From: a virus
DNA length: 21,853 nucleotides
Reading direction: 5' to 3' (one strand)
Virus record (IMG/VR): IMGVR_UViG_3300040815_003288
Location: 1-21,853 of that record
The first letter of the stretch is position 1; each line of letters starts with the position of its first letter. A program made the position numbers and the translations under genes. Shown in pieces: positions 2,734-18,504 of this stretch. Under the pieces are notes generated by a model that saw nothing but the letters and a program-made list of their open reading frames with translations, was not told where the DNA came from and did not search any database.

Positions 2734-3682
2734 AAAGAAAAAAATACCTGCTATTGTAAAGCAGATTAAGCAGCATAACTTAAGAGAAGTTAACTATGCT
2801 TTTGAAAAATCAATTTCATACAGCCAGTTCTCAATGTTTACTGCTTGTCCTCATAAGTGGAGTCTCCAATATAAAGACGGTTATTACCACTCTGAATCGT
2901 CTATTCATATGACATTCGGAACTTCGTTACACGAGGCGTTACAACATTATATAACGACTATATACGATGTTAGTGGCGCTGAGGCAGACCGTATCAATAT
3001 AGAGGAGTATTTTGAAGAACGTTTTAGAGAAAACTATTTAAAAGATTATAAATCAAATAAAAATGTTCATTTCTCTGATTCAATTCAAATGAGGGAATTT
3101 TTTGAAGATGGATTAGCCATTATAAATTTTATTAAAAAGAATCGAGGAGGTTATTTTGGGAAACGAGGATGGTATTTAGTAGGATGTGAAGTTCCTATTA
3201 CATTAAATCCTCACTCAAACTATAAAAACATATTCTATAAAGGATATTTAGATGTAGTTTTATATCATGAACCAACTAATAAATTTAAAATTTTAGATAT
3301 TAAAACATCTACTAAAGGTTGGGATGATTATAATAAAAAAGATGAAACTAAACAGATGCAATTGATTTTATATAAAAAGTTTTTTGCCCAACAATTTAAT
3401 GTTTCTGAAGATGATATCGATGTAGAATTTTTTATAGTAAAAAGAAAAGTATGGGAAGACTCACCTTACCCTATATCCAGGGTTCAAGAGTTTAAACCAG
3501 CAAGTGGTAAAGTAAAAATTAATAAAGCAACTAAAGCAATTACTTCATTTATAGAAGAAGTATTTAACTATGATGGATCTTATAAAGACAAAGCATATGA
3601 ACCTAATCCTTCTAAGTTTAATTGTATGTTTTGTCCTTTTAAAGAAGATAAAAATCTTTGCGATAAAGGTTTAACCTTATAG
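2726..3682 (+). CDS. PD-(D/E)XK exonuclease, Cas4/RecB-type, with Fe-S cysteine set
   Basis: A 318-aa RecB/Cas4-family nuclease beginning with GTG at 2726, overlapping the previous stop. The N-terminus has SYSQFSMFTACPHKW with C41. Next comes GTSLHEAL (H69, E70), then the catalytic core D176 (GYLDVVLY) and D191-I-K193 (ILDIKTS), and the QLxLY motif (Q212). Three C-terminal cysteines, C300, C303 and C312, with C41 complete the four-Cys pattern that binds a [4Fe-4S] cluster in Cas4 and AddB. All key residues are present, so it should be an active single-strand DNA exonuclease or endonuclease, perhaps for recombination-dependent replication or host DNA turnover. It is longer than Cas4 (about 200 aa), and no CRISPR genes are near, so a CRISPR role is unlikely. 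Confidence 0.9.
   Translation: MAKKKKIPAIVKQIKQHNLREVNYAFEKSISYSQFSMFTACPHKWSLQYKDGYYHSESSIHMTFGTSLHEALQHYITTIYDVSGAEADRINIEEYFEERFRENYLKDYKSNKNVHFSDSIQMREFFEDGLAIINFIKKNRGGYFGKRGWYLVGCEVPITLNPHSNYKNIFYKGYLDVVLYHEPTNKFKILDIKTSTKGWDDYNKKDETKQMQLILYKKFFAQQFNVSEDDIDVEFFIVKRKVWEDSPYPISRVQEFKPASGKVKINKATKAITSFIEEVFNYDGSYKDKAYEPNPSKFNCMFCPFKEDKNLCDKGLTL
3666..3678. repeat. 13-bp odd palindrome before the RHH gene, possible operator
   Basis: AAGGTT-T-AACCTT, perfectly symmetrical around base 3672, lies in the last codons of the nuclease gene. It is 13 bases upstream of a TATATTTA box and about 46 bases upstream of the ribbon-helix-helix gene. Its position suits an operator for that regulator, but one short AT-rich palindrome could occur by chance. 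Confidence 0.3.
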
Positions 3683-3724: not shown

Positions 3725-3919
3725 ATGACAAATAAAAAAGATATGACATTAACCTCTGTGAAAGTACAGAGTGAGTTATTTGACAATTTCAAAATTGCTT
3801 GTGTTAAGTACAAATTTTCTTTACAAAAACTTGCTGACCGAACAATTCATTTGTATCTTACAGATGAAGATTTTAGAAAAAAAGTACACAGTCACAACAA
3901 TTTAGAAATTAAAGATTAA
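3725..3919 (+). CDS. ribbon-helix-helix-like DNA-binding protein, 64 aa
   Basis: The pattern fits a MetJ/Arc-type ribbon-helix-helix protein. A short beta strand (about residues 8-14, TLTSVKV) is followed by helix 1 (16-28, ELFDNFKIACVKY) and helix 2 (31-45, SLQKLADRTIHLYL), then a basic tail. RHH proteins dimerise and insert the paired strands into the major groove. It sits alone between a promoter-like box and the glycan cassette, two bases before the first glycosyltransferase, so it is likely co-transcribed with the cassette and may control it or itself. The fold is inferred from pattern only. Confidence 0.65.
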   Translation: MTNKKDMTLTSVKVQSELFDNFKIACVKYKFSLQKLADRTIHLYLTDEDFRKKVHSHNNLEIKD

Positions 3920-3921
3920 AA

Positions 3922-5358
3922 ATGGAATCACGTTTTGAATATCTTCCTCCAGAAAAAAGGAAGAAGATTGTTTTTATCTCTGATGATTTAAGAGTTCATT
4001 CAGGTATTGCTACTGTAGCAAGAGAAATAGTGACCCATACTGCCCATCATTTTAATTGGGTAAGTATTGGAGGAGCTGTTAAACATGAAGATGAAGGTAA
4101 GAGATTAGATTTATCTCAAGCTACAAATCAAATGAATGGATTAAAAGATTCATCAGTTATTATGTATCCTGTAAGTGGATATGGAAATCCTGACTTCTTA
4201 AGACAATTAATGGAATTTGAAAAACCAGATGCTATAATGATGATCACTGATCCTCGTTATTATGTTTGGTTATTTCAAATGGAAAATGAGGTTAGAAGAA
4301 AAATTCCTATTGTTTACCTTAACATTTGGGATGATTACCCAGCACCAATGTATAATAAACCTTATTATGAGGCTTGTGATTTATTGATGGGTATTTCAAA
4401 ACAAACAGTAAACATTAATAGACTTGTATTAGGAGATAAAGCTGATAAGAAACTTCTTAAGTATATTCCTCATGGTTTAAATCATCAAATATTTAAACCT
4501 TTGGATAAAAATGATCCTAAATTAATTGAGTTTAAAAAATCAATATTCAAAGGAAAAGATTATGATTTTGCTTTATTGTTTAATTCTAGAAATATTAGAC
4601 GTAAACAAATTCCTGATACTATTTTAGCTTATAGATATTTCATTGATCAGTTACCTAAGGAACAAGCTAAAAAATGTGTGTTAATTCTCCATACTGAAAG
4701 AGTATTAGATCATGGTACTGATTTGGAAGCAGTAATCGAATTACTATTAAACGAAGATCATTACAATGTTGAATTTACTGATGCTAGATTTAACCCAGAA
4801 CAAATGAACTTACTATATAATAGTACAGATGCTCAAATTTTATTAACATCAAATGAAGGTTGGGGATTAAGTATCACAGAAGCTATTTTAGCAGGTAATT
4901 TGATTATTGCTAATGTGACAGGTGGTATGCAAGATCAAATGCGTTTTGAAGATGAGAATGGAGAATGGTTTACCCCAAGCGCTGATATTCCTTCAAACCA
5001 TACTGGTAAATATAAAAAACATGGTGAATGGGCTTATCCAGTATTTCCAACTTCAAGAACATTAGTAGGTTCACCACCAACCCCTTATATTTGGGATGAT
5101 ACATGCCGTCCTGAAGATGCAACTAAACAAATTATGGCTGTATATTCTTTAACTAAAGAAGAAAGACAAGCCAAAGGTTTAAAAGGTAGAGAATGGGCAA
5201 CAAGTGAAGAAGCAGGATTTACATCTTATCATCAAGCAGAAAGAGTAATAGATGCTTTAAATGAGTTATTTGATACTTGGGAACCGAGAGAAAAATATGA
5301 ATTGATAAATGTAAATACTTATCCTGACAGAGTTATAAACCATAAATTATTATATTAA
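3922..5358 (+). CDS. GT-B glycosyltransferase (GT4-like)
   Basis: A 478-aa retaining-type GT-B transferase expected to move a sugar from a nucleotide donor to a glycan. The N-terminal Rossmann domain begins at KKIVFIS with an acceptor-side loop (SGIATVAREIV, residues 27-37). The linker PHGLNHQIF (183-191) is typical of the domain hinge. The C-terminal donor domain holds the EX7E motif E312-GWGLSIT-E320, whose second Glu binds the donor ribose. A long insertion after the motif (about 340-395, Pro/Trp-rich) precedes the C-terminal helix. No signal peptide or membrane segment is present, so it acts in the cytoplasm. It shares a base (TAATG) with the next transferase gene. The donor and acceptor cannot be told from sequence. 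Confidence 0.9.
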   Translation: MESRFEYLPPEKRKKIVFISDDLRVHSGIATVAREIVTHTAHHFNWVSIGGAVKHEDEGKRLDLSQATNQMNGLKDSSVIMYPVSGYGNPDFLRQLMEFEKPDAIMMITDPRYYVWLFQMENEVRRKIPIVYLNIWDDYPAPMYNKPYYEACDLLMGISKQTVNINRLVLGDKADKKLLKYIPHGLNHQIFKPLDKNDPKLIEFKKSIFKGKDYDFALLFNSRNIRRKQIPDTILAYRYFIDQLPKEQAKKCVLILHTERVLDHGTDLEAVIELLLNEDHYNVEFTDARFNPEQMNLLYNSTDAQILLTSNEGWGLSITEAILAGNLIIANVTGGMQDQMRFEDENGEWFTPSADIPSNHTGKYKKHGEWAYPVFPTSRTLVGSPPTPYIWDDTCRPEDATKQIMAVYSLTKEERQAKGLKGREWATSEEAGFTSYHQAERVIDALNELFDTWEPREKYELINVNTYPDRVINHKLLY

Positions 5359-6665
5359 TGAAACCGTTATTCGCAATAAGTTCTGCTTTTGATACCTATT
5401 CTGGCTATGGCGCCCGTTCAAGAGATTTAATTAAAGCCATTATTGAAACTGATAAATACGATGTAGTTTTGCTTTCACAACGTTGGGGCAATACACCATT
5501 TGGGTTCTGTAAAGACAATCCAGAATGGAGTTTTTTACTAGAAAAATTACTTCCTAATAATCAATTAACTAAACAACCTGATATTTGGGCTCAAGTAACT
5601 GTACCTAATGAATTTCAAAGAGTAGGCAAGTTTAATATTGGTTTCACAGCTGGTATTGAAACAACTGTTTGTGCTGCTGAATGGATTGAAGGTTGTAATA
5701 GAATGGACCTAAATATCGTCTCATCAGAACATTCTAAAAATGTATTCTTAAATTCAAAATTTGAAAAAAGAAACAAACAAACTAATGCTTTAGAAGGTAC
5801 AGTTGAATTAACTAAACCTATAGAAGTATTATTTGAAGGAGCAGATTTAAATATTTACAAACATCTTAGTTATGGTACTTATGAAGATAATTTATCTGAA
5901 TTAAGAAACATTAAAGAAAAATTTGCTTACTTATTTGTAGGACATTGGATTCAGGGTGACTTAAATGAGGATAGAAAAAATGTAGGCTTACTAGTTAAAG
6001 CATTTTTTGAAGTATTCAAAAACAAATCTAATAGACCAGCATTAATCTTAAAAACATCTCAAGTAGGTTCATCTTATTTAGATAGAGAAGAAGTAATTAA
6101 AAAAATTAAAAAGATAGCTAAAACTGTAAACTCTAAAAACTTACCTAATGTCTATGTACTTAATGGTGAATTAAGCGATTCAGAAATGAATGAACTTTAT
6201 AACCATCCTAAAGTAAAGGCAATGGTTAGTTTAACTAAAGGAGAAGGTTTTGGACGTCCATTACTTGAGTTTACTACAAGTAAAAAACCACTCTTAACTA
6301 CAGGATGGTCAGGTCATATGGATTTCTTAGATCCTAAATTTACTACTTTACTTAATGGTGAATTAAAAAATGTTCACCCAAGTGCTGCTAATCAATTTTT
6401 ACTTCCTGATTCACAATGGTTTAATCCTGACCATCAACAAGTTGGTTTCTACTTAAAAGATATTTTTGAAAATTATAAAAAATATACTGAGGGAGCTAAG
6501 AAACAAGCCCATAAAACAGAAACAGAATTTAGTTGGGATAAAATGAAAGAAAAAATAGATAATATTTTAACTAAAAATATTCCTGAGTTTCCTAAAGAAG
6601 TAAAATTAGAGATACCTAAATTAAATAAAATACAATTACCTAAATTACAAAAAATAGATGGATAA
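5358..6665 (+). CDS. GT-B glycosyltransferase (GT4-like) with Lys/Pro-rich tail
   Basis: A second GT-B transferase of 435 aa. The N-terminus has FDTYSGYGARSRDLI (residues 11-25), the glycine-rich acceptor-side loop. The hinge is VLFEGADLNIYK (157-168), and the EX7E motif is E296-GFGRPLL-E304. An insertion around 196-207 (WIQGDLNEDRKN) precedes the donor domain. The last 25 residues form an unusual tail with three Pro-Lys units (FPKEVK, IPKLNKI, LPKLQKI), perhaps for membrane or partner contact. It begins on the last base of the preceding stop and overlaps the zinc-ribbon gene by 8 bases. It may act in series with its neighbour on the same glycan. Confidence 0.88.
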   Translation: MKPLFAISSAFDTYSGYGARSRDLIKAIIETDKYDVVLLSQRWGNTPFGFCKDNPEWSFLLEKLLPNNQLTKQPDIWAQVTVPNEFQRVGKFNIGFTAGIETTVCAAEWIEGCNRMDLNIVSSEHSKNVFLNSKFEKRNKQTNALEGTVELTKPIEVLFEGADLNIYKHLSYGTYEDNLSELRNIKEKFAYLFVGHWIQGDLNEDRKNVGLLVKAFFEVFKNKSNRPALILKTSQVGSSYLDREEVIKKIKKIAKTVNSKNLPNVYVLNGELSDSEMNELYNHPKVKAMVSLTKGEGFGRPLLEFTTSKKPLLTTGWSGHMDFLDPKFTTLLNGELKNVHPSAANQFLLPDSQWFNPDHQQVGFYLKDIFENYKKYTEGAKKQAHKTETEFSWDKMKEKIDNILTKNIPEFPKEVKLEIPKLNKIQLPKLQKIDG

Positions 6666-7113
6666 TTTAATAACATGTGAACGTTGCGGGTCAGATGCCT
6701 GTTACGTAGATGAAGTAAACGCTGATATCAAAACATATTTTTGTTATGGATGCGGTTTCCAGACTAATTCATTAATGATTGAAGGTGAAGATTTTTTGGA
6801 ACAACAGAAAGAAAATTTACCCGAACTCTATAAAGACCTATTCCAGAAAGATGAATCAGGAAAATATTGGATGCCCTCAGCAGTTAATGTACCTAGTAAA
6901 GGAATGATATTTGCTAATGGTTCCAATACTAGAGATTGGTATTGGAGTGCTGTAAAAGCCATTCCAGTAACAGAGGAAGAAAAAGAAAAATATCCTATCC
7001 CAGGAAAAAAAGATCAATATTATGAATGGAGAATGGATATGAGTACAATTAAAAACTTCCCTGAACGTGAGTTTATGGATGCCTTGAGTTATGTAGGATT
7101 ACTCCCAGAATGA
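6658..7113 (+). CDS. zinc-ribbon protein, 151 aa
   Basis: The N-terminus carries a C4 zinc ribbon: C7-x2-C10-G and C29-x2-C32-G, spaced 18 residues apart. It is followed by an acidic helical region and a C-terminal domain rich in Trp/Tyr (DWYWSAVKA, then YYEWRMDMS). It contains no glycosyltransferase motifs. Similar zinc-ribbon proteins are, as I recall, found in T4-like marine phages without known function. It is embedded between two glycosyltransferase genes with overlaps on both sides, so it belongs to the same transcript. A role as a nucleic-acid-binding or accessory protein is possible but unproven. Confidence 0.75.
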   Translation: MDNLITCERCGSDACYVDEVNADIKTYFCYGCGFQTNSLMIEGEDFLEQQKENLPELYKDLFQKDESGKYWMPSAVNVPSKGMIFANGSNTRDWYWSAVKAIPVTEEEKEKYPIPGKKDQYYEWRMDMSTIKNFPEREFMDALSYVGLLPE

Positions 7114-7718
7114 TTAGTATAGCAATTACAGTTTGTAATGAACATGAGGAATTAGAGACTCTGTTAGATTATTTATCTGACAGAGCTCTTTCTCCTGAAT
7201 ATGAAATTGTTGTTCAAATAGATAAAGATAATCATACTGATGATGTTATTAGTGTGATTGTTGGTAGGGGAATTAAACATTGGTTTCATCCTCTAAATAA
7301 AGATTTTGCTAGTTATAAAAATGAATTAGCAAACCACTGTGAAGGAAAATATATCTTCCAAATCGATGCTGATGAATTACCCTCAGTAGAATTACTTGAT
7401 ATACTTCCTAGTATATTAGAAAGTAATCCCGAAGTGGATGTATACTTAGTTCCTCGAATTAATACTGTAAGTGGTATCACCGAGGAACATATCCTTAAGT
7501 GGGGTTGGAGATATGAAAATGATAGAGTAAATTTTCCTGATTATCAATGGAGAATTTATCGCAATGATAAATCCATTAAATGGAAAAATAAAGTTCATGA
7601 AGTATTAGAAGGATATAAACAATATGCTGCTTTGCCTCCTGAAGATGAGTTTTGTTTAATTCATCCTAAAACTATTAAACGACAAGAAAAACAAAACGAG
7701 TTTTATAATACAATATGA
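7110..7718 (+). CDS. GT2 family glycosyltransferase
   Basis: A 202-aa GT-A fold inverting transferase. The N-terminal strand ISIAITVCNE (2-11) is the GT2 nucleotide-binding start. Next comes the EIVVQIDKDNHTDD donor loop and the metal-binding DxD at D86-A-D88 (FQIDADE). The later segment with NFPDYQWRIYRNDKSIKWKNKVHE resembles SunS/WaaE-type beta-glycosyltransferases. It is compact, lacking any membrane segment. It overlaps both neighbours through ATGA junctions. Donor specificity is not predictable. Confidence 0.9.
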   Translation: MISIAITVCNEHEELETLLDYLSDRALSPEYEIVVQIDKDNHTDDVISVIVGRGIKHWFHPLNKDFASYKNELANHCEGKYIFQIDADELPSVELLDILPSILESNPEVDVYLVPRINTVSGITEEHILKWGWRYENDRVNFPDYQWRIYRNDKSIKWKNKVHEVLEGYKQYAALPPEDEFCLIHPKTIKRQEKQNEFYNTI

Positions 7719-8527
7719 AAATAAAAACAGCTCACTTTGATGCTAAGGTTTTTGAGGATAAATTACAACATTTATCTCATTTAGATTTTTCTTTATTTAT
7801 AGATACTGCTCCTCAATCTCAAGAGGATTTATCTTCAATTAATATTATTTCTTTTCAAGAACCAAATGAATATTTTGGTCTTCATGATTGGACAATCCAA
7901 AACAAAGATCTATTTAATATCATTCTAACCCAGAGTGATAAAGTATTAAATAATTGTGATAATGCTATTTTTCAACCATTTGGACATACATGGTTAAAAC
8001 CAGATCAATATAGTAAGGAACATAGTAAAGAATTTAAATTAGCTCATTTACAAGGTAAATTACTTAAAACATATGGTCACTCTTTAAGACACCAAGTAAC
8101 AGCTAGAAAAAATGAATTAACTATTCCTACTAAGTTTTATGAAACCTATGGAGATAGAAACAATATTGATGATGCTCGTTTAGGTAAAGAATTTATATTT
8201 GGTGATTCACAATTTGGAGTAGTAATTGAAAATACATCAAGTAGAGGTTACTTTACTGAAAAAATACTAGACTGTTTTTTATTAAAGACTATTCCTTTAT
8301 ATTGGGGTTGTTCGAATATAGGAGATTATTTTGATATAGACGGTATAATAACGTTAAATAACGTAGATGATTTGATTTATATATCAAATAATTTAACTAA
8401 TGATTATTATGAATCTAAAAAAGAAATAATTAATAAAAATTGGAACTTAGCTTTAAATTACGTACATTACGAACAAAACATAGTTAATACAATAACAAAT
8501 ATTTTTAAACACAATAAGCTTATATGA
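7715..8527 (+). CDS. GT10 alpha-1,3-fucosyltransferase-like protein
   Basis: The C-terminal half carries the GT10 signature: FGVVIENTSSRGYFTEKILDCF, with E172-N173 and the Y179-F-T-E-K183 segment, then KTIPLYWGCSNIGDYF with P194 and G198. In characterised GT10 enzymes this region binds GDP-fucose and transfers fucose to the 3-position of GlcNAc or Glc. The N-terminal half (residues 1-155) is divergent and smaller than in Helicobacter FucT; total length is 270 aa. No heptad repeats or membrane anchor follow. GDP-fucose synthesis genes are absent here, so the donor would come from the host. Family membership is well supported; the sugar actually transferred could be another 6-deoxyhexose. Confidence 0.85.
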   Translation: MKIKTAHFDAKVFEDKLQHLSHLDFSLFIDTAPQSQEDLSSINIISFQEPNEYFGLHDWTIQNKDLFNIILTQSDKVLNNCDNAIFQPFGHTWLKPDQYSKEHSKEFKLAHLQGKLLKTYGHSLRHQVTARKNELTIPTKFYETYGDRNNIDDARLGKEFIFGDSQFGVVIENTSSRGYFTEKILDCFLLKTIPLYWGCSNIGDYFDIDGIITLNNVDDLIYISNNLTNDYYESKKEIINKNWNLALNYVHYEQNIVNTITNIFKHNKLI

Positions 8528-9666
8528 AAAAAATATGGTATGCTCCTTACAAGTTTGAATCTTATGGAGAAGAAGAAATTAAAGCAGTAGAGGAATCACT
8601 TCGCTCAGGATGGCTAGGAGGTCAAGGACCTAAATCAATTGAGTTTGAAGAAAAAATAGCTAAACATTTTGGTAAAAAATATGGTGTATTTGTTAATTCA
8701 GGTTCATCAGCATGTTTGCTTGCTTTAGCTAGTTTACAATTACCTAAAGGCACTAAAGTTATTACACCAGCATGTACATTCTCAACTACATTAGCTCCTA
8801 TGGTTCAATTAGGTCTTGATCCTGTTTTTGTTGATGTTGGATTAAATGATTATGTAGCTGATATTAATCAAGTAATTGAAGCAGTCACTCCAGAAGTAAA
8901 AGTTATTATGTTGCCTAATTTGATTGGTAATAAACCAAATTGGAAAAAGCTTAAAAGTGACTTGAAATATATGGGTAGAAAAGATATTATCCTAATTGAA
9001 GACTCAGCGGACACAGTAACCCATACTCCAGAATCAGATATCGCCACTACTAGTTTTTATGCCTCTCATGTTATCACAGCAGGTGGCTCAGGTGGAATGG
9101 TAATGTTTAACGATAAAAAATTAGTTAATGTTTGTCTTCAATTTAGAGATTGGGGTAGATTAGGAGGTGATTCTGAAATTATGGATGAACGTTTCAATCA
9201 TAAAGTAGATGGTATTCCATATGATCATAAATTTTTATATAGTGTTCTAGGATATAATTTTAAATCATCTGAAATGAATGCTGCTTTTGGTTTAGTTCAA
9301 TTAGACCGTTTTAAGAACTTTGAACAAATTAGAAGAGCAAATATTGAACGTTATATTGAAAATTTAAAAGATGTAGAAGAAATATTATTGCCTGATGATT
9401 CAATTAAACCAAATTGGTTAGCCATTCCATTACAAACTAAAAAACGTTTTGAGTTACTTACTTTCCTAGAAAATAATAATATTCAAACAAGAGTAACATT
9501 TGCTGGAAATGTAACTCGCCATCCAGCTTATAGAGAATACTTACAAGAATTTACCAATTCAGATATTATTATGGAAAATGGATTTTTGTTAGGTGCTCAT
9601 CATGGAATGACTATTGATGATGTAGATTACGTTTGTGATAAAATTAAAGAATTTTTTAGTAAATGA
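8524..9666 (+). CDS. DegT/StrS-fold sugar-nucleotide 3-dehydratase (ColD/E1-like, His in place of Lys)
   Basis: A PLP enzyme of the DegT/DnrJ/EryC1/StrS fold, 380 aa. Visible elements: G30-W-LGGQGP start, the phosphate-binding VNSGSSA (58-64), the PLP-ring Asp in LIEDSAD (D160), and the motif SFYASHVITAGGSGG. Aminotransferases of this family have Lys at the residue before VITAGGSGG; here it is H182. The same Lys-to-His change defines GDP-4-keto-6-deoxymannose 3-dehydratase (ColD) and CDP-4-keto-6-deoxyglucose 3-dehydrase (E1/RfbH). The enzyme should therefore remove the 3-hydroxyl rather than transaminate. It is followed immediately by a ThDP enzyme and an SDR, which fits synthesis of a branched 3,6-dideoxysugar. 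Whether it is ColD-like (using glutamate) or E1-like (needing an E3 reductase, not seen) is open. Confidence 0.88.
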   Translation: MKKIWYAPYKFESYGEEEIKAVEESLRSGWLGGQGPKSIEFEEKIAKHFGKKYGVFVNSGSSACLLALASLQLPKGTKVITPACTFSTTLAPMVQLGLDPVFVDVGLNDYVADINQVIEAVTPEVKVIMLPNLIGNKPNWKKLKSDLKYMGRKDIILIEDSADTVTHTPESDIATTSFYASHVITAGGSGGMVMFNDKKLVNVCLQFRDWGRLGGDSEIMDERFNHKVDGIPYDHKFLYSVLGYNFKSSEMNAAFGLVQLDRFKNFEQIRRANIERYIENLKDVEEILLPDDSIKPNWLAIPLQTKKRFELLTFLENNNIQTRVTFAGNVTRHPAYREYLQEFTNSDIIMENGFLLGAHHGMTIDDVDYVCDKIKEFFSK

Positions 9667-11450
9667 TAAAAGTAAGTGATGTAGTTGCTGAATTTTTAAA
9701 ATATAAAAAAATTGATACTGTTTTTGGTATCATAGGTTCAGCTAATTCTCATATTTTTGATTCAATCCAAAATTTAGGATATACAAAAATCATATGTACA
9801 CATCATGAACAAGCAGCTATTATGGCCATGGCTGCTTATTATAGAGCCTCAGGTAAACCATCAGCTGCTTTAGTAACAGCAGGAGCGGGAGCGAGTAATG
9901 CCATTACTGGGGTAATTAGTAACTGGGCAGATTCTATTCCAGGTATAATCATTTCAGGTCAAGAACCCTCAAGATATTTAAGTCAACATAAAGACTTAAG
10001 AATGTATGGAACTCAGGGTTTTAGTTCATATAAAATGGTTGAGGATGTCACTAAATGTAGTGATGTTTTGTTAGATGGAGACCGCATATATTCATTTTTA
10101 GACAAACATTATAATCAAAGCACATCAGGCAGACCAGGCCCTACTTGGTTAGAAATTCCTTTAGACATTCAGGCCCAAAAAGTAGAAGTTAAAGAGTTTA
10201 ATAACTATTCATCAAAATCAATAAGAATAACAGATGCTTATAGTTATGCTAATGAAATTATTCGCTTAATTAATGATTCTAAACGTCCTGTTATTTTAGG
10301 AGGTATGGGAATAAAATTAAGTGGAGCTAAAGATAAATTTAAACAATTAGTAAATCAAACAAATATCCCAACCATGCTAAGCTGGTCAGGGGCGGATTTA
10401 TTACTTACTAGCCACAAATCAAATTTTGGACGATTTGGATTATATGGTCAACGAGCCGCTAATTTTATTATACAAAATTCTGATTTAGTAATTGTATTAG
10501 GTAGTAGAATGGCTTTACCTCAAGTTGGATATGATTTTAGTCAATTTGCTAGAAATGCTCTAATTGTTCAAGTCGATATCGATGAATCAGAATTAAACAA
10601 ATATGATAGAGTTCTTAAATACTATCATGATGTGGACATGGTTTTAGAAAAAATGTTAGAAAAAATATCTAATATTAAGCCAAATATAGACCAATGGATA
10701 ACTAAATGTAATTATTATAAAACTAAATATCCTATTATTGATGATAATTATAAAAATGATAAGTATGTTAATTCATATTCATTTGTAAATAAACTAACCC
10801 AAAAGTTAAACGATAATGAAATTATTGTTACTGATATGGGTACTGGTTTATTAAGTGGACATCAAGCATCTGATTTAAAAGAAGATCAGATGTTATTCAC
10901 TAGTCAGGGGCTAGGAGAGATGGGTGTAGGATTACCTTATGCTATAGGAGCATCATTCGCTGCTCCAGATAAACCTATTACTTGTTTAAATTGCGATGGG
11001 GGTATTATGATGAACTTACAGGAATTGCAAACTATTGTTCAACATAATTTACCTGTTAAAATATTCATCTTTAATAATGATGGGTATTTAATGATTAAAC
11101 ATACTCAAAAATTATTTTTCCAAGGTAGATATGCTTCTGTAGATAAAAACACAGGTATAGTACTCCCAGAATTTGAAAGATTAGCTTATGGTTTTAATAT
11201 TCCTTATTATAAAATAGATAAATTAGAAGATTTAGATAATATGGAGTTTAAAAATGATGGGCCCTCTATTATTGAGGTATTTATGGATCCTGAACAAGAT
11301 TTTATTCCTAAAGTTAAAGGAGCTGTTACTAAAGATGATTTAATTATTCCTTCCCCATTAGAAGAAATGTCTCCATTATTGCCTTTTGAAACAATTGAAA
11401 AAGAAATGATCATAGGTGTTAGTGAAAAATCAAAACAAATCAAAAGATGA
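9663..11450 (+). CDS. ThDP-dependent acetolactate-synthase-like enzyme, candidate YerE-type sugar acetyl transferase
   Basis: A 595-aa enzyme with three thiamine-diphosphate-family domains in order. The Pyr domain (1-170) has catalytic Glu E49 in THHEQAA. The central domain (about 195-330) follows, and the PP domain (about 370-545) has the cofactor motif C444-D-G-G, 24 residues, N471-N472. The canonical first Gly of GDG is Cys here. It resembles acetolactate synthase, but no regulatory subunit or other amino-acid genes are present. Its place between a 3-dehydratase and an SDR matches YerE, which adds a two-carbon acetyl unit from pyruvate to a 3,6-dideoxy-4-keto sugar nucleotide in yersiniose A synthesis. 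The ThDP family is certain; the sugar substrate is inferred from gene order. Confidence 0.85.
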   Translation: MIKVSDVVAEFLKYKKIDTVFGIIGSANSHIFDSIQNLGYTKIICTHHEQAAIMAMAAYYRASGKPSAALVTAGAGASNAITGVISNWADSIPGIIISGQEPSRYLSQHKDLRMYGTQGFSSYKMVEDVTKCSDVLLDGDRIYSFLDKHYNQSTSGRPGPTWLEIPLDIQAQKVEVKEFNNYSSKSIRITDAYSYANEIIRLINDSKRPVILGGMGIKLSGAKDKFKQLVNQTNIPTMLSWSGADLLLTSHKSNFGRFGLYGQRAANFIIQNSDLVIVLGSRMALPQVGYDFSQFARNALIVQVDIDESELNKYDRVLKYYHDVDMVLEKMLEKISNIKPNIDQWITKCNYYKTKYPIIDDNYKNDKYVNSYSFVNKLTQKLNDNEIIVTDMGTGLLSGHQASDLKEDQMLFTSQGLGEMGVGLPYAIGASFAAPDKPITCLNCDGGIMMNLQELQTIVQHNLPVKIFIFNNDGYLMIKHTQKLFFQGRYASVDKNTGIVLPEFERLAYGFNIPYYKIDKLEDLDNMEFKNDGPSIIEVFMDPEQDFIPKVKGAVTKDDLIIPSPLEEMSPLLPFETIEKEMIIGVSEKSKQIKR

Positions 11451-12223
11451 GTATTCTCATAACAGGGTCTAATGGTTATATAGGAAAATCTTTATATAAT
11501 TCTTTAAGACTTCATCATAAAGTACTTACAATATCTAGGCAAGAAGTAGATTTGACAAACAGTGAGTCTGTTAGAAATTACTTTAAAGATAAATATTTTG
11601 ATACAATTATCCATTGTGCAGTGTCTGGAGGAAATAGAACCAAACATGATACATCAGAAGTGATAGACAATAATTTAAAAATGTATTATAATTTATTAGA
11701 TAATAAAAAACATTTTAATAAATTTATACACTTTGGTTCAGGGGCTGAGATACATTTTAAAGATACTCCTTATGGTTTAAGCAAACATGTAATAAGAGAA
11801 TCTATTTTAGGTCAAGATAATTTTTATAACTTAAGAATATTTGCTGTTTTTGATGAAAATGAATTAGAAACTAGATTTATAAAAACAAGTATAAAAAAGT
11901 ATTTAGAAAATCAATCTATTGAAATTTTTAAAGACAAACGTATGGATTTTCTTTATATGCCTGATTTGATTACTTTAGTAAACTATTATTTAAATAATAA
12001 TGATTTACCTAAGGAAATAGATTGTAAATATAATTATACACCCACCTTATTAGATATAGCTGAAATTATAAATGGTTTAGATAATTATAGAGTACCAATT
12101 AAATTTAATTCAACAATTAATGATAAAGCATATATTGGTAAATTTCATAATTTAGGTTTAAATTTTATTGGTTTAGAACAGGGAATAATAAACACATATA
12201 ATAAAATAAAGAATGAATATTAA
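11447..12223 (+). CDS. NAD(P)-dependent SDR sugar-nucleotide reductase (RmlD/YerF-like)
   Basis: A short extended-type SDR of 258 aa. It has the nucleotide-binding GSNGYIG (7-13), VDLTNSE then FDTIIHCA (51-58), GSGAEI, and the catalytic Y109-GLS-K113. The order and short length are RmlD-like (a reductase of 4-keto sugars) rather than 4,6-dehydratase-like, since those enzymes are usually longer than 300 aa. Following a YerE-like enzyme, it could reduce the acetyl-branch ketone, as the SDR YerF does in yersiniose synthesis. It overlaps both neighbours by a few bases. SDR family is secure; the specific reduction is inferred. Confidence 0.82.
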   Translation: MSILITGSNGYIGKSLYNSLRLHHKVLTISRQEVDLTNSESVRNYFKDKYFDTIIHCAVSGGNRTKHDTSEVIDNNLKMYYNLLDNKKHFNKFIHFGSGAEIHFKDTPYGLSKHVIRESILGQDNFYNLRIFAVFDENELETRFIKTSIKKYLENQSIEIFKDKRMDFLYMPDLITLVNYYLNNNDLPKEIDCKYNYTPTLLDIAEIINGLDNYRVPIKFNSTINDKAYIGKFHNLGLNFIGLEQGIINTYNKIKNEY

Positions 12224-13127
12224 AATAGCTAGCCATATAATGCCTTGGGACATTGACTATGCTCTACTATTGTTTACCCAATTAAAAAAATCCAAATATT
12301 ACCTATCAGAGGATATAAACATTACTGTTGATGTTAATTTAAATCTATCTGACTATATTATAGATTGGAATAAATCAAAATTACCTAAGTCTTATTTTAT
12401 TTCTAAATTTAATACATTATTAGATTTATTAGAAGATTATAATGTTGATAAATTAATTTATGAAGGAAATAATCTTTATGGTCATTTAGATCAACAGCGT
12501 TCTATTATATCTCCTGAAACTGATTATTACATAAGTATATGCCCCGATATCTATTTCAGCGAACATACTTTATACTACTTAATAGAATCAGCTCAACTAA
12601 TAAAAAATAAATATTTTGTTTTAAGTCCTCAACATAGAAAATTAACAGACGAAAGTTGGGATCCTACTACAGATGAAAACTACTTAAACATTCCTTATGA
12701 AAAATGTAATGACTTAAGTATTTTTGATATAAGACATAATAACAAACAAAAAGATAACATAGCAGTTCAGCCAGTTCAAATACCTAAATTTGCGGGGTGG
12801 TGTGATTTGTATAGTAAATCTTTTTATGAAGAATTAGTTCCTATCCATGATGAATGGAATGGTTATGGACCTTGGGATTGGTATAGTATGATTCTTATTA
12901 ATTATGTTAAAAAATTTAATATTGACTTCCAGCAATATACTTTAAAAGGACCTACTGTAGGAGACTATTGGATTGGTAAATGGAAAGATAAAGAAGGATT
13001 ATCTGGGTATTATAAAGATTTAATAGTGAAAAAAGACATACCAAACCAAAGATCAACTTTTGAAGCAAATTTGGAAAACTACGTGAGGAAAGGTATATTA
13101 ATGTTACAAGAAAAAGGTATCATATGA
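12213..13127 (+). CDS. probable GT-A-like glycosyltransferase
   Basis: A 304-aa protein with an N-terminal IKIASHIMPWDIDYALLLFTQL stretch typical of GT2-like proteins that begin with a strand and a helix. The mid-protein TDYYISICPDIYFSEHTL segment has D112 after a beta strand, at the place of the DxD metal site. A later EWNGYGPWDWYSMILINYVKKF segment resembles the acceptor-side aromatic and acidic region of GT-A enzymes. No membrane segment is visible. It overlaps the SDR by 11 bases and the next gene by ATGA. It is assigned from pattern and from its location among transferases; the exact family is not recognised. Confidence 0.65.
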   Translation: MNIKIASHIMPWDIDYALLLFTQLKKSKYYLSEDINITVDVNLNLSDYIIDWNKSKLPKSYFISKFNTLLDLLEDYNVDKLIYEGNNLYGHLDQQRSIISPETDYYISICPDIYFSEHTLYYLIESAQLIKNKYFVLSPQHRKLTDESWDPTTDENYLNIPYEKCNDLSIFDIRHNNKQKDNIAVQPVQIPKFAGWCDLYSKSFYEELVPIHDEWNGYGPWDWYSMILINYVKKFNIDFQQYTLKGPTVGDYWIGKWKDKEGLSGYYKDLIVKKDIPNQRSTFEANLENYVRKGILMLQEKGII

Positions 13128-14485
13128 TTAAACTAATTATATTTGATTTAGACGGTGTATTAGTTGAGGCTAAAAAAATACATTATGACGCCTTGAATAA
13201 AGCATTAGGTAAAACATACTCCATCAATTGGGATGAACATTTATCAGTTTATGATGGTTTGAAAACAAATCAAAAACTAGAAATGTTAACTGAACGTAAA
13301 GGTTTACCTGTTGGATTACATTCTGAAATTTGGGATAAAAAACAAAAATATACTCTACAGGCACTTAATGAGCTTAACCCAAATCAAACACTACAATCAG
13401 TAATGTCTGCGTTAGTAGAAGATGGTTATAAGTTGGCTGTGTGTTCTAATTCAATTCGTAAAACAGTATTAACTGTACTTTCTAAATTAGGGATTATTGA
13501 GTTTATGGATTTAATTATCTCAAATGAAGATGTTAAAAATAGTAAACCTCATCCTGAAATGTATTGGAAAGCTATTTCAATGATGAGTTGTCTCCCAGAA
13601 GAAACACTTATTGTTGAGGATTCACCTTATGGTTTATTAGCAGCATCTAGAAGTAAATCACATATTTTAAGAGTAAAAAATCCTAAAGAAGTAACTTATA
13701 GTAATATATTTAAAAAATTAACTGAAATAGAAATGGGTGAAACAATTAAATCTCCTGCTTGGAGAGATAAAAATTTGAATGTATTGATTCCAATGGCGGG
13801 TGCTGGTTCTAGATTTGAACAGGCAGGTTATACATTCCCTAAACCGCTTATTGATGTTCGAAACAAACCTATGATTCAGGTTGTAGTAGAAAATCTTAAT
13901 ATTAAAGCTAATTATATTTATATTGTTCAAAAGAAACATAGAGAAAAATATAATTTAGATACTTTACTTAATTTAATCACTCCAGATTGTAAAATTGTAG
14001 AAGTAGATGGATTAACTGAAGGCGCTGCTTGTACAGCATTATTAGCTAAGGAATTTATTAACAATGATCAACCTTTATTCTTTGCCAACTCAGACCAGTT
14101 TGTAGAATGGGACTCAAATGAATTCCTTTATAAAATGAATGAGACAGAGGCAGATGGTGGTATTGTTACTTTTAAAGCAACTCATCCTAAATGGTCGTTT
14201 GCTAAAGTAGATGAAAAAGGATTAGTAACTGAGGTAGCCGAAAAAAATCCAATTTCAGATATTGCAACTGTAGGATATTATTATTGGAAACATGGTTCTG
14301 ATTTTGTAAATTACGCAGAACAAATGATTGAAAAAAATATTCGAGTAAATAATGAATTTTATGTTTGTCCTGTATTTAATCAAGCGATTGAAGATGGAAA
14401 ACAAATTCGTACTTTTGATATTAAACAAATGTGGGGGTTAGGTACTCCTGAAGATTTAAAATATTATTTAGAAAATTACAAATGA
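13124..14485 (+). CDS. HAD hydrolase-sugar nucleotidyltransferase fusion
   Basis: A two-domain protein of 453 aa. Residues 1-205 form a beta-phosphoglucomutase/GPH-type HAD domain: nucleophile D8 and D10 in FDLDGV, motif II S108-N109, motif III K141 in KPHPE, and motif IV E165-D166 in VEDSPYG, all intact. Residues 216-453 form a sugar-phosphate nucleotidyltransferase: LIPMAGAGSRF (221-231) and K240 in FPKPLID, then FFANSDQFVEW as the Asp motif. The HAD half could be a phosphatase or mutase that handles the sugar phosphate, and the second half would activate a sugar-1-phosphate with NTP. Fusing consecutive steps is common in bacterial surface-glycan loci. The sugar is not predictable. It probably supplies a donor for the cassette transferases. 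Confidence 0.88.
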   Translation: MIKLIIFDLDGVLVEAKKIHYDALNKALGKTYSINWDEHLSVYDGLKTNQKLEMLTERKGLPVGLHSEIWDKKQKYTLQALNELNPNQTLQSVMSALVEDGYKLAVCSNSIRKTVLTVLSKLGIIEFMDLIISNEDVKNSKPHPEMYWKAISMMSCLPEETLIVEDSPYGLLAASRSKSHILRVKNPKEVTYSNIFKKLTEIEMGETIKSPAWRDKNLNVLIPMAGAGSRFEQAGYTFPKPLIDVRNKPMIQVVVENLNIKANYIYIVQKKHREKYNLDTLLNLITPDCKIVEVDGLTEGAACTALLAKEFINNDQPLFFANSDQFVEWDSNEFLYKMNETEADGGIVTFKATHPKWSFAKVDEKGLVTEVAEKNPISDIATVGYYYWKHGSDFVNYAEQMIEKNIRVNNEFYVCPVFNQAIEDGKQIRTFDIKQMWGLGTPEDLKYYLENYK

Positions 14486-14907
14486 TATTAATTAGCCATA
14501 GAGGAAATATTAACGGAAGAATTCCTGAACAAGAAAATCACCCTGACTATATAATTGAAGCATTAAGTCAAGGTTATGATGTTGAAGTAGATGTTTGGTA
14601 TGTTAATGGTGAATTTTATTTAGGCCATGATGAACCTCAATATAAAACAAATAAAATATTTTTGAGTCATAATTGTTTATGGGTACATTGTAAAAATGTT
14701 GAGGCACTTGATAAGTTTAAGTTTGATAACATTAATTACTTTTGGCATGAGAATGATACTGTCACTCTAACCTCAAAAAGAAATATTTGGGCCTACCCAG
14801 GGAAACAACCTATTAAAGGTAGTGTAGCAGTGTTACCTGAACTTTATAATGATAATGTAGAAGGATGTTATGGTGTATGCTCTGACTATATAGAAAATTA
14901 TAAATAA
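14482..14907 (+). CDS. GDPD/PI-PLC-like phosphodiesterase domain protein, 141 aa
   Basis: Carries the glycerophosphodiester phosphodiesterase signature: H6-R7-G near the start, E35 and D37 in GYDVEVDVWY, H49-D50 in LGHD, and K71 in WVHCKN. These correspond to the catalytic His pair and the metal-binding Glu/Asp of GDPD. At 141 aa it is short for a full TIM barrel (about 240 aa). I recall a group of proteins of this size with the same NYFWHENDxxTLTS continuation encoded in bacterial polysaccharide loci, so it may be complete for its group. It could hydrolyse or transfer a phosphodiester-linked glycan decoration. It overlaps both neighbours. Family call is good; role is open. Confidence 0.75.
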   Translation: MILISHRGNINGRIPEQENHPDYIIEALSQGYDVEVDVWYVNGEFYLGHDEPQYKTNKIFLSHNCLWVHCKNVEALDKFKFDNINYFWHENDTVTLTSKRNIWAYPGKQPIKGSVAVLPELYNDNVEGCYGVCSDYIENYK

Positions 14908-15608
14908 TGCAAGGAGTAATAATACAAGGACCAACTAACTATGCTTCCCAAATAATAGAATCATATAAGGGAATTAGTAATGTTGTTTGGTCAACTTGGA
15001 TTGATGAACCTAAAGAAAATATATCCTTAATTAAGGAAAATGGAATAGAAGTAATACAAATAGATAAACCTACAGTAGCAGGGCATATAAATGTTAATTT
15101 TCAAACATTAAGTACCTATGCTGGGATTGATTATTTAAAAAATAAAGGAGTAAATGAGGCTTTAAAAGTAAGAGGTGATATGAAAATAAATAATCCTAAA
15201 TTACTTTTAGAAGTATTAAAAGGTAAAAAAATATCTTTTTTATCCATTTGTAAACCTAACATTAGACCTTTATATTATGAACTAGTTTATAGACATAATA
15301 GCTTTGATTTCCCAGGTGACTTATTATTATATGGTGAATTAAATGAGTTAGAAAAATGTTTTAATTTCCAAGTTGAAGATAATAATCCTATACCTCCTGA
15401 AGCATTAATAGCTTATAGTTATTTAACCCAATCCAATATTGATTTTAATCTTAATTATAACCACTTTATTAATTCAGGAATTAGTTTTTTTGCTCAGGAA
15501 TGCTTAGATAATAAAATAGAAATTGATTGGTTAAAAAGAAGTACAGAAGAACCACTTTGGAAAAACATTTTAAACCATTCAGCAGATAAAACTTTATATA
15601 ACTATTAA
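14907..15608 (+). CDS. WavE-like lipopolysaccharide glycosyltransferase
   Basis: Resembles the WavE lipopolysaccharide-synthesis family. It starts VIIQGPTNYA, has VVWSTWIDE (S29-T-W31), then N64-FQTLST, and the core ALKVRGDM with K87, R89 and D91, which matches the YVLKxRxD signature of the family. WavE (Vibrio cholerae LPS core) proteins are presumed GT-A-like transferases. Length is 233 aa, smaller than WavE (about 300), with no membrane segment. It starts at the last base of the upstream stop codon and ends two bases before the next gene. The family call is from motif recall. Confidence 0.7.
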   Translation: MQGVIIQGPTNYASQIIESYKGISNVVWSTWIDEPKENISLIKENGIEVIQIDKPTVAGHINVNFQTLSTYAGIDYLKNKGVNEALKVRGDMKINNPKLLLEVLKGKKISFLSICKPNIRPLYYELVYRHNSFDFPGDLLLYGELNELEKCFNFQVEDNNPIPPEALIAYSYLTQSNIDFNLNYNHFINSGISFFAQECLDNKIEIDWLKRSTEEPLWKNILNHSADKTLYNY

Positions 15609-15610
15609 AT

Positions 15611-16513
15611 ATGATTTCTTTAATTATACCAACAACAACTAAGAATAGAAATTATACTAATAATATCTTACAAAACATTAGAGAAATTTATCCTAATATT
15701 GAAGTTATTATTGAGGAAAATGATGATGTTACTCTAGGTGTAAATTATAATAATGCTGTTTCTAAAGCCACAGGTGATAAAATTATTTTACTCCATAATG
15801 ATATGTTTATTAAACCTGGTTTTATTGAAACTATGGATAAACATATTACCAAGGGAAGAATAACAACATATACAAGAATAGAACCACCTATTTATACAGA
15901 CACTTACCCAGGTAAAGTAATTTTAGATTGTGGGAGTGATTTAGAAACATTTAATAAAGATAAATTCAATAATTTTAATATTGAAGAAAAATTAGAGGAT
16001 GGAGGTTCACAATTGTTTTTTGGATGTATGAAAGAAGATTATATAGGAATTGATGGTTATACATTTCAAATGTTTTGTGAAGATGATGATTTGCATTTAA
16101 GATATAAATTAGCAGGGTTTGAACATAAAGTAAGTTCTGCTCATGTTTATCATTTTGTAAGTAAAACTTCTAGAGCAGGAAGTTATAAAGAAGTTGAACA
16201 ACAATCAAATTTTAACTTTGTTAAAAAATGGGGTTTTAGAATGTCTCATTACAATGTTGTTTATAATAAAAGGTATGTTATTAAAAACGATAATAGACAG
16301 TTAAATGAGACTTTAAAATGGTGGTTTAATGATGGTGATGATATACTTGTTGAAATTGATGGTCAAACATTTACAGATCAAGATTATATGTATATCCAAC
16401 AGTTAAATGATATTGTAAAAGATAATAATGAATTAGGTACCTTTGAATTAGGTAATTTAAAAATAACAGTTAATAGTTTAGAAGAACAACAGCATAATTT
16501 AATTAAAATATGA
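15611..16513 (+). CDS. GT2 family glycosyltransferase
   Basis: A 300-aa GT-A transferase. It begins ISLIIPTTTKNR (2-13) with a donor-site ENDDVTLGVNYNNAVSKATGD stretch. The metal site is HND (H62-N63-D64) before MFIKPGF, where family members usually have a D-x-D-D. A second acidic cluster, E157-DDD-L, precedes LRYKLAGF and matches the catalytic EDxDL region of GT2. The last 100 residues after the VSKTSRAGSYKE segment are an extension rich in Asp/Asn, not assigned. It is the last transferase of the operon and overlaps the small ORF at 16510 by ATGA. Confidence 0.88.
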   Translation: MISLIIPTTTKNRNYTNNILQNIREIYPNIEVIIEENDDVTLGVNYNNAVSKATGDKIILLHNDMFIKPGFIETMDKHITKGRITTYTRIEPPIYTDTYPGKVILDCGSDLETFNKDKFNNFNIEEKLEDGGSQLFFGCMKEDYIGIDGYTFQMFCEDDDLHLRYKLAGFEHKVSSAHVYHFVSKTSRAGSYKEVEQQSNFNFVKKWGFRMSHYNVVYNKRYVIKNDNRQLNETLKWWFNDGDDILVEIDGQTFTDQDYMYIQQLNDIVKDNNELGTFELGNLKITVNSLEEQQHNLIKI

Positions 16514-16668
16514 TATTTGGATTTTATAATAGGAATGATAAGATGGAAGAACTTGTTGGACGTACAGTAGGAACATCTAGACTTAAAGCAGCTAAATATT
16601 TTGCTGCTAGAAAACAATTACCGTTAAAAGAATTTCTAAAAATATTTGGGATAAAACAAGTAATATGA
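16510..16668 (+). CDS. small basic protein, 52 aa
   Basis: A 52-codon ORF that opens with ATGA on the stop of the preceding transferase and closes with the same ATGA overlap on the next gene, so it is almost certainly translated. An Arg/Lys-rich amphipathic helix (residues 18-50, containing TSRLKAAKYFAARKQLPLKEF) suggests nucleic-acid or protein binding. An internal ATG at codon 12 is an alternative start. It has no recognised family, and it marks the transition from the glycan cassette to general phage genes. Confidence 0.65.
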   Translation: MIFGFYNRNDKMEELVGRTVGTSRLKAAKYFAARKQLPLKEFLKIFGIKQVI

Positions 16669-17063
16669 TTGATATGAAAGGTTTTGGAAAAAATTTAAAT
16701 TTAAAATTACGTAACGAAAACAAATCATTTGGAAACAATAAAAAAACATTTGTTAAGTTAGTAGATACTTTTGATCAATTAGTTCAACGAACTTATTCTA
16801 TTGAAGAAGAAGTAGGTATTATTATGGAAAAATATGAAGAACCTTTCTTTATATTGATTGAAAGTTTATTTTATTTAAACTATGAAGACTGGAAAGCTGA
16901 ATTAGTCATGTGGTATGTTTATGATAGATGGGACGATGAAGGTGAATTATCTCCTCTTAATATAACAGATATAGAAGCAGGAACAGAAGAAGATATCATC
17001 ATTAATACACCAGGTGAATTATATGATTTATTAAAACGTATAGATAAAAAAGGAAAAAAATAA
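16665..17063 (+). CDS. hypothetical protein, 132 aa
   Basis: Coupled to the upstream ORF through ATGA; an in-frame ATG at codon 4 could also be the start. The N-terminus is basic and Asn-rich (KNLNLKLRNENKSFGNNKK), the centre hydrophobic and acidic (EEPFFILIESLFYLNYEDWKAELVMWYVYDRWDDEGE), and the end basic. It is a soluble-looking mixed protein without cysteine. No family is recognised. A 20-base gap follows. Confidence 0.75.
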   Translation: MIDMKGFGKNLNLKLRNENKSFGNNKKTFVKLVDTFDQLVQRTYSIEEEVGIIMEKYEEPFFILIESLFYLNYEDWKAELVMWYVYDRWDDEGELSPLNITDIEAGTEEDIIINTPGELYDLLKRIDKKGKK

Positions 17064-17083
17064 AAGTTATAATATTTAAAGTT

Positions 17084-17383
17084 ATGAAATGTATTAAATG
17101 TGGAGAATTAATTCCTGAAGGTAGATTAAAAGCACTACCAGGAACCAAAACATGCACAGCATGTTCAAATGCTAAAATGAAAGGAGTAGTTACAGTAATG
17201 AAAGGTGAAGGAGATCATACCTGGATTGAAACTATTCATTTAGAACATGATGAACATCAGAAATATATGGAAGCAGAAAATCGCCTCCGTAAACAAGGTA
17301 ACATACCATCTGATAAATCAGATTCACCTAGTGAGGTTCCTCATGGATTTAAAGAAACTAAATTAAATAAAAAAGAAGAATAA
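17084..17383 (+). CDS. DksA/TraR-type zinc-finger protein, 99 aa
   Basis: The N-terminus has C3-x2-C6-GELIPEGRL and C24-x2-C27, the DksA/TraR zinc-finger pattern (CxxCGxxIxxxRLxAxPxxxxCxxC). The rest is an acidic linker and a Ser/Pro/Lys tail with low complexity. DksA-like proteins act in the RNA polymerase secondary channel, but here the long coiled coil with the Asp-Ala tip, which is N-terminal in DksA, is absent, so it is a finger-only relative. It may bind RNA polymerase or act as a simple structural finger. It overlaps the next gene by one base (TAATG). Confidence 0.8.
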   Translation: MKCIKCGELIPEGRLKALPGTKTCTACSNAKMKGVVTVMKGEGDHTWIETIHLEHDEHQKYMEAENRLRKQGNIPSDKSDSPSEVPHGFKETKLNKKEE

Positions 17384-18024
17384 TGCCTAAAGCTAGACCA
17401 CTCAGTAAAGAGGAAATTCTAGCAGCTATGTCTAAAACCAAATCAGTACGTAGCGCTGCTAGGTATCTGAATTGTTCCTATCAACATCTTAAAAAATGGA
17501 TGAAACTATATGATGGGAGTAATGGTCAAAGTTTATTTGAAGAACATAAAAACCAATCGGGTAAAGGCATTCCTAAATTTTTAAGTAATTCTCCTTTTGG
17601 GAAAAAAGAACCTGCTATATTAGATATTATAAATGGTGTAGTAGATGCTTCTAATTTTAATCCTCAAAAAATTAAATATAGACTTATAGAAGGAGGTCAT
17701 TTAAAAGAAGAATGTTATAACTGTGGATTTCATGAAAGAAGAGTATTAGATTATAAAATGCCTTTAATACTCCATTTCAAAAATGGTAACAAACAACATT
17801 ATAGATTAGATAATTTAGAAATGCTTTGTTATAACTGTTACTTCCTTTCAGTTGGAGACTTATTTACTGGCAAACAAGTTGAGCAAATGGAGGATCATGT
17901 CCCAAGCAAAGAAAAAGAACCAGATTGGGAAGTAGATGACTACACTCAACAACGACTAAAAGAATTAGGATTATATGACTCTAAACCAGATGATGATCCT
18001 TATGATTTAGTATCTAAACTTTAA
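17383..18024 (+). CDS. HTH plus degenerate HNH zinc protein, 213 aa
   Basis: Residues 8-45 form a helix-turn-helix (EEILAAMSKTKSVRSAARYL, then CSYQHLKKWM). Residues 111-155 show the frame of an HNH nuclease: C111-x2-C114, then H131-F132-KNGN, N144-L, and C149-x2-C152-Y153. Active HNH proteins have H-H before the DGN turn and a His after the last CxxC. Here the general-base position is Phe and the final His is Tyr, while the four zinc cysteines are kept. It therefore looks like a zinc-structured DNA-binding protein that has lost nuclease activity, perhaps a regulator. The C-terminal tail is acidic (WEVDDYTQQR, DDDPYD). Confidence 0.75.
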   Translation: MPKARPLSKEEILAAMSKTKSVRSAARYLNCSYQHLKKWMKLYDGSNGQSLFEEHKNQSGKGIPKFLSNSPFGKKEPAILDIINGVVDASNFNPQKIKYRLIEGGHLKEECYNCGFHERRVLDYKMPLILHFKNGNKQHYRLDNLEMLCYNCYFLSVGDLFTGKQVEQMEDHVPSKEKEPDWEVDDYTQQRLKELGLYDSKPDDDPYDLVSKL

Positions 18025-18503: not shown

Positions 18504-18504
18504 A

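Follow-up and report, generated by a model that had tools for sequence, protein, structure and literature searches.

What does a T4-like phage do with a block of glycan genes as rich as a bacterial surface-polysaccharide locus, and which molecule receives the sugars? The question is raised by IMG/VR virus record IMGVR_UViG_3300040815_003288, a virus fragment of 21,853 bases (hereafter the window), in which positions 3922-16513 contain 13 open reading frames (ORFs) on the plus strand, spanning ~12.6 kb, with neighbours overlapping or separated by gaps of ≤14 bases. A preliminary description of this DNA had recognized a glycan cassette in a T4-like genome, forming a coupled run of genes between replication and lysis/accessory genes, and both points were borne out: the window matches the gp44 and gp62 PHROGs, and gp23 is encoded by long relatives. 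Six glycosyltransferases (GTs) are supported by family matches, structures or both (two GT-B, two GT2, one GT10-like and one GT-A-fold protein). The seventh that had been proposed, a WavE-like protein at 14907-15608, has no Pfam match even at an E-value of 1, and since that label has a motif basis only, our count is six supported GTs and one tentative GT. Sugar-nucleotide enzymes are present as described, i.e. a DegT/RfbH-like protein, a thiamine diphosphate (ThDP) enzyme, an SDR protein and a HAD-nucleotidyltransferase fusion, and the whole is indeed far beyond what base glucosylation needs. Reports of glycan genes in phages mostly concern scattered auxiliary metabolic genes, whereas here such genes are gathered in a single obligatory locus whose core is constant and whose other contents are exchangeable. 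We give about an even chance to the reading that this locus is a cytoplasmic, serotype-like system glycosylating virion proteins.

The locus is not peculiar to the window. A search with GT-B1, the first gene of the cassette, identified at least 598 relatives in viral contigs, and 80 of these loci, together with the isolated phage immuto and phage Mel-JY01, were compared gene by gene. In a sample assembled independently of the cassette, namely contigs with relatives of the left-flank nuclease that were fetched separately and had ≥1.5 kb of downstream sequence (n = 61), GT-B1 is located within 3 kb of the nuclease in 60 contigs and 3.6 kb away in the remaining one. The search of related phages suggested in the preliminary description thus found the same borders in dozens of contigs and in the Flavobacterium phage isolate immuto (Immutovirus, MW353175). 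The latter shares with the window the PDDEXK nuclease, the small ORF, GT-B1 (54% identity), GT-B2 (58%), the zinc-ribbon-like protein, GT2, a set of variable genes and the DksA/HNH flank, but its variable genes are its own (a methyltransferase, an acetyltransferase and other transaminases). The immuto locus is annotated in its record, and no paper describing it was found in the open-access literature searched. Two independent assemblies, L085 and L007, have the same gene order as the window, and the DNA of L085 aligns with the window over both borders at 81-86% identity. The possibility that phage ends were chimerically assembled with a bacterial sugar locus, or that the region is bacterial chromosome, had been raised at the outset; its probability is now negligible, because assemblies made independently, and the genome of a phage isolate, show the same order and borders. 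Recurrence of both junctions rules out a chimera, and no point in its favour was found. As one obligatory locus with a constant core extends across so many contigs, its acceptor, selective pressure and recombination are testable in immuto. In Mel-JY01, which is a distant relative, the GT-B1 homologue is split into two ORFs (L003:19998-21489).

The complete cassettes (n = 29, a few of them from near-identical contigs) range from 5.8 to 15.8 kb and contain 7 to 20 genes. GT-B1, GT-B2, the zinc-ribbon-like protein and GT2 are all present in every one of the 29. The non-core genes, by comparison, fall into 98 families, 53 of which are singletons and none of which occurs in more than half of the cassettes. 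How such contents change is seen by comparing the window with contig 3300007540_005056 (L095). The two DNAs are 93-99% identical for the greater part of the left flank (to position 3900) and ~70-80% identical across the core GTs, have no detectable similarity between 7.7 and 16.4 kb, and return to ~95% identity at 16.5 kb. At the protein level, the flanks are 91-100% identical (on the right, 100% for the 52-aa ORF, 99% for the 132-aa ORF, 91% for DksA/TraR and 100% for the HNH protein), whereas GT-B1 and GT-B2 are 71-72% identical and no variable family is held in common; the variable block of L095 encodes another transaminase-family protein, methyltransferases, a PhyH-type dioxygenase and other GTs. 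Because the flanks are near-identical, the core GT-Bs only ~72% identical and the variable genes entirely different, this is a cassette swap, with borders at 3922 and 16513. Further pairs with flanks ≥93% identical and gene-content Jaccard indices ≤0.14 are L028/L093 and L043 versus L096-L098, the last three being near-identical and counted once.

The enzymes in the variable block of the window point to an unusual sugar. The nearest relative of the DegT-fold enzyme is CDP-4-keto-6-deoxyglucose-3-dehydrase (3bcx), and a His replaces the pyridoxal phosphate-binding Lys (SFYASHVITAGG), as it does in full-length phage relatives of this type. The enzyme falls short of the RfbH/E1 equivalog criteria, scoring 275 bits against a cut-off of 423 and lacking the [2Fe-2S] cysteines, which are present in the RfbH-type protein of L099. 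The adjacent ThDP enzyme is closest to 8rph, i.e. JanthE, a YerE-like ligase with a CDG motif (PMC12188165, PMC12247030). Its best bacterial relative (55% identity) is in a Flavobacteriaceae metagenome-assembled genome, and its bacterial relatives often adjoin RfbH-type genes and also lie near ORFs that match RfbF and RfbG by length only. In the predicted pathway, the RfbH-like dehydratase would take the 3-hydroxyl off a 4-keto-6-deoxy sugar nucleotide, the JanthE-like enzyme would use an alpha-keto acid to add an acyl unit at C-4, and the branched product would then be reduced or epimerised by the SDR protein. Given the combination of these two enzymes and the gene neighbourhoods of the bacterial ThDP relatives, a C-branched dideoxy sugar is the likely product. 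The arrangement resembles the YerE/JanthE branched-sugar pathway (PMC12247030, PMC12188165) in having a CDG-motif ThDP enzyme and an RfbH-like dehydratase encoded by adjacent genes, and differs from it in that the dehydratase lacks the E1 Fe-S cysteines and that RfbF and RfbG were not identified in the window. A JanthE-like branched-sugar enzyme in a phage appears to be new. Other cassettes contain different enzymes: a GDP-fucose synthase-like SDR protein, a true RfbH and a DAHP synthase-like enzyme in L099; an AroB-related phospholyase in L092; and, in the cassette of L007 and L085, PanB adjoining another ThDP enzyme. The PanB of L007 (17532-18464; ketopantoate hydroxymethyltransferase, above cut-off) might supply an unusual alpha-keto acid donor. 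The locus is thus a source of unusual sugar enzymes, including the JanthE-like ligase and, in relatives, PanB and AroB-like enzymes.

Where the finished glycan goes depends first on whether it can leave the cytoplasm. By a hydropathy rule, none of the 729 proteins encoded inside the cassettes of the window and its relatives is polytopic (≥2 transmembrane segments), a simple rule that a single-pass or monotopic initiating enzyme may escape; the same rule assigned 6 segments to wbbH and 9 to rfbX of Escherichia coli K-12. A single protein with ≥2 segments is encoded far downstream of the cassette in L003, and a DUF2061-like small protein ending L094 scores below two. A flippase, polymerase or ABC exporter is therefore missing from the cassettes, a statement based on the hydropathy count, as the Pfam tally covers the best 25 of the 98 families. 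The comparison with a bacterial lipopolysaccharide (LPS) or capsule locus made in the preliminary description consequently holds for gene content and variability, i.e. nucleotide-sugar genes and several GTs that are block-swapped between conserved flanks as in O-antigen and capsule loci, but not for export and polymerisation, there being no Wzx, Wzy, ABC or initiating membrane enzyme. Since the machinery for exporting a sugar coat is missing, the phage's own proteins are most likely to be decorated. That the glycan is a soluble or secreted decoy, or that the enzymes divert metabolism with no fixed acceptor, is very improbable; the sole point for it is that the acceptor is not pinned down, and both the lack of export and polymerisation genes and the obligatory, co-conserved GT core speak against it.

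A second candidate for the acceptor is the host surface, with sugars added to the LPS core or a lipid-linked acceptor at the cytoplasmic face and exported by host flippases, which would keep out other phages or hide the receptor from the progeny. The O-antigen-like sugar enzymes and the RfbH-like neighbours of the bacterial ThDP relatives would suit this, and GT islands in pelagimyophages have been read as surface remodelling (PMC7029224). We nevertheless regard it as unlikely, though with appreciable weight. Besides the lack of any flippase, polymerase or membrane modifier among the 729 proteins, GT-B1 was found in none of 395 Bacteroidota genomes, while the same model finds GT-B1 in phages, distant ones included, so GT-B1 is not borrowed host LPS machinery. 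To our knowledge, moreover, serotype conversion by phages is a trait of temperate ones and is carried out by polytopic membrane GTs. The structural model of GT-B1 was assigned by Foldseek to the GT-B fold with the chlorovirus enzyme B736L (3oy2) as the top match, and its best PDB match by sequence is also a chlorovirus GT.

The sugars could, thirdly, be destined for DNA, varied glycans on a hydroxylated base protecting against restriction and CRISPR and swaps tracking host nucleases. Clusters of phage GTs are reported to hypermodify DNA by adding a variety of glycans (Pyle 2024, as cited in PMC12619734), the cassette adjoins replication genes, and a DNA methylase-family gene lies beside the locus in Mel-JY01. 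This, too, is unlikely, and we rate it a little lower than host-surface remodelling. The PF00303 proteins of seven relatives are genuine thymidylate synthases by the Asn of their GLPFN motif, and the T4-type dCMP hydroxymethylase (Asp for Asn) was not found among them, the window itself being a fragment. Of 15 records, 14, among them the complete genome of immuto, lack the C5-methyltransferase family PF00145, and Mel-JY01 has it; the annotation of immuto includes a 7-deazaguanine DNA pathway. No match to T4 AGT (PF11440) was obtained in nine records, in a search that covered AGT only and had no positive control, nor was there a match to the Tet/JBP dioxygenase family PF12851, likewise without a positive control. 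A TGT family search overlooked the annotated DpdA of immuto and is uninformative for the other records. Most records in these searches are fragments.

Glycosylation of virion proteins agrees, on indirect grounds, with the soluble enzymes, the phage-specific core, the serotype-like variation and the weak likeness of GT-B1 to the chlorovirus GT; soluble, phage-encoded GTs are expected of a virion protein glycosylation system and are what the cassette encodes. We propose that soluble cytoplasmic enzymes would produce unusual nucleotide sugars and that a GT relay, always with the two phage-specific GT-Bs and GT2, would build up a short glycan on at least one structural protein of the phage, either ahead of assembly or in its course. 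The linkage or the invariant inner sugars may come from the constant GTs, and the outer sugars would be set by the variable genes. Variable blocks would be exchanged whole, by recombination within the conserved flanks, so that phages nearly identical beside the locus would carry different glycans, on which selection by receptors, grazers or host recognition may act. The broader picture, held tentatively and at slightly less than even confidence, is of a widespread T4-like lineage with antigenic-variation-like virion glycans, in which an invariant phage-specific GT core is combined with exchangeable cassettes, some making C-branched sugars, to give O-antigen-like serotypes on near-identical virions. 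If the virion is the acceptor, one could speak of phage serotypes as one does of bacterial ones, and adsorption, grazing and neutralisation would be affected. Among the three roles that the preliminary description had left unranked, virion-protein glycosylation is thus favoured, host-surface remodelling is possible and a secreted decoy is unsupported.

Several points weigh against this reading, in which the acceptor, the order of the enzymatic steps, the sugar structure and the selective agents are inferred. Soluble GTs could extend host lipid A-core or lipid-linked acceptors at the cytoplasmic face and rely on host export, and the cassette is placed after replication genes rather than virion genes. 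The C5-methyltransferase-family gene of Mel-JY01 (L003 / PP395634.1:80521-81189), just left of the nuclease and GT locus, would suit DNA modification. GT-B1 and the chlorovirus enzyme are only weakly alike, with 17% identity when their structures are aligned. Finally, neither a 4,6-dehydratase nor a clear cytidylyltransferase is evident in the window, so that sugar synthesis would need host or off-window steps.

Parts of this arrangement are already known from other phages. The host recognition cluster of pelagimyophages (PMC7029224) is likewise a hypervariable GT island in T4-like aquatic phages, but it lies between VrlC and gp14 with tail fibres, whereas the present cassette is flanked by gp44/gp62 and HNH/endolysin genes and has no tail fibres. 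Moraphages, which are also large aquatic phages with predicted Bacteroidota hosts, have four widely shared core GT families; the available text of PMC12619734, with which we compare by description only, describes no cassette swap or locus. In mycobacteriophages, capsid and tail-tube proteins are reported to be glycosylated by phage-encoded GTs (Freeman 2023, as cited in PMC12363180). Such GTs are common to both systems, the virion being the proposed acceptor here, but protein glycans were shown there and the present system is known from genes alone. The mycobacteriophage systems that we know of have one to a few GTs and no large nucleotide-sugar cassette. A constant core that is obligatory, together with the replacement of entire sets of sugar genes between fixed borders, appears to be new with respect to the open-access literature, and an earlier description may exist.

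The features of the window are listed in Table 1. The cassette is preceded by gp44- and gp62-like clamp-loader genes and a PD-(D/E)XK nuclease gene and is followed by genes for a DksA/TraR zinc finger, an HNH protein and a glucosaminidase-type endolysin. The 64-aa protein at the left border is more conserved (median identity 89%) than any other flank or core protein compared and may be a regulator. An extension of ~50 aa at the C-terminus of the terminal GT (window 16358-16513) is common to terminal GTs of different cassettes and is perhaps a docking segment or a recombination site.

Table 1. Features of the window and the matches on which their assignments are based
Feature	Position	Strand	Evidence
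T4 gp44-like clamp loader, left context	472..1410	+	phrog_168, E 2e-77
T4 gp62-like clamp loader subunit, left context	1823..2242	+	phrog_225, E 4e-15
PD-(D/E)XK nuclease, conserved left flank	2726..3682	+	PF12705, E 9e-18; 98% identical in L095
64-aa protein, left border	3725..3919	+	no confident family
Core GT-B1, phage-specific GT4-like glycosyltransferase	3922..5358	+	Pfam GT1 PF00534; AF2 pLDDT 88
Core GT-B2	5358..6665	+	Pfam GT1; phrog_2170, E 2e-25
Core zinc-ribbon-like protein	6658..7113	+	CxxC-CxxC seen in sequence; no confident family
Core GT2	7110..7718	+	PF00535, E 1e-8
GT10-like (fucosyltransferase-like) GT	7715..8527	+	alpha1,3-fucosyltransferase 2nzw, E 2e-7
DegT-fold enzyme, RfbH/E1 3-dehydratase-like	8524..9666	+	3bcx, E 7e-59; RfbH NCBIfam, 275 bits
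ThDP-dependent carboligase, JanthE/YerE-like	9663..11450	+	8rph, E 1e-168; CDG motif, CLNCDGG
SDR nucleotide-sugar epimerase/reductase	11447..12223	+	PF01370, E 4e-23
GT-A-fold protein, probable glycosyltransferase	12213..13127	+	AF2 pLDDT 90; Foldseek to GT-A enzymes, E ~1e-7
HAD phosphatase/phosphomutase and sugar-1-phosphate nucleotidyltransferase fusion	13124..14485	+	PF13419, PF00483
Small phage protein phrog_34507	14482..14907	+	E 9e-31
WavE-like glycosyltransferase, tentative	14907..15608	+	motifs only
Terminal GT2	15611..16513	+	PF00535, E 5e-8
Conserved right flank: 52-aa ORF, 132-aa ORF, DksA/TraR zinc finger, HNH protein	16510..18024	+	PF01258; HNH PHROGs

T4-type gp23 is encoded by 6 of the 13 long records searched, including immuto and Mel-JY01; the other records are mostly short fragments. 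In G005 (268,739 bases; the contig of L016), two gp23-type capsid genes lie ~200 kb apart, which may mean that the gene was duplicated, that one copy encodes a second capsid protein or that the assembly joined separate sequences. The whole window gave no megablast match to phages, and neither tRNA genes nor Rfam matches were found in it. Shine-Dalgarno sequences are missing from the leaders of its ORFs, which fits a Bacteroidota host, and the host of this T4-like phage group is probably a member of the Bacteroidota.

Scanning for the T4 late-promoter octamer TATAAATA was uninformative, since 8 matches were observed in the window and 7 were expected, and a sigma-70-like scan of the window scored below shuffled sequences. 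The motif TTTGG-N18-TTATATTTA, a candidate Bacteroidota-like promoter, occurs in three copies on the plus strand (19720, 21239 and 21400) upstream of accessory genes, with 0.04 expected, and a weaker copy is found at 18504, ahead of the endolysin gene. In the relatives, 29 motifs of this type are located outside the cassettes and 3 inside, with 8 on the reverse strand.

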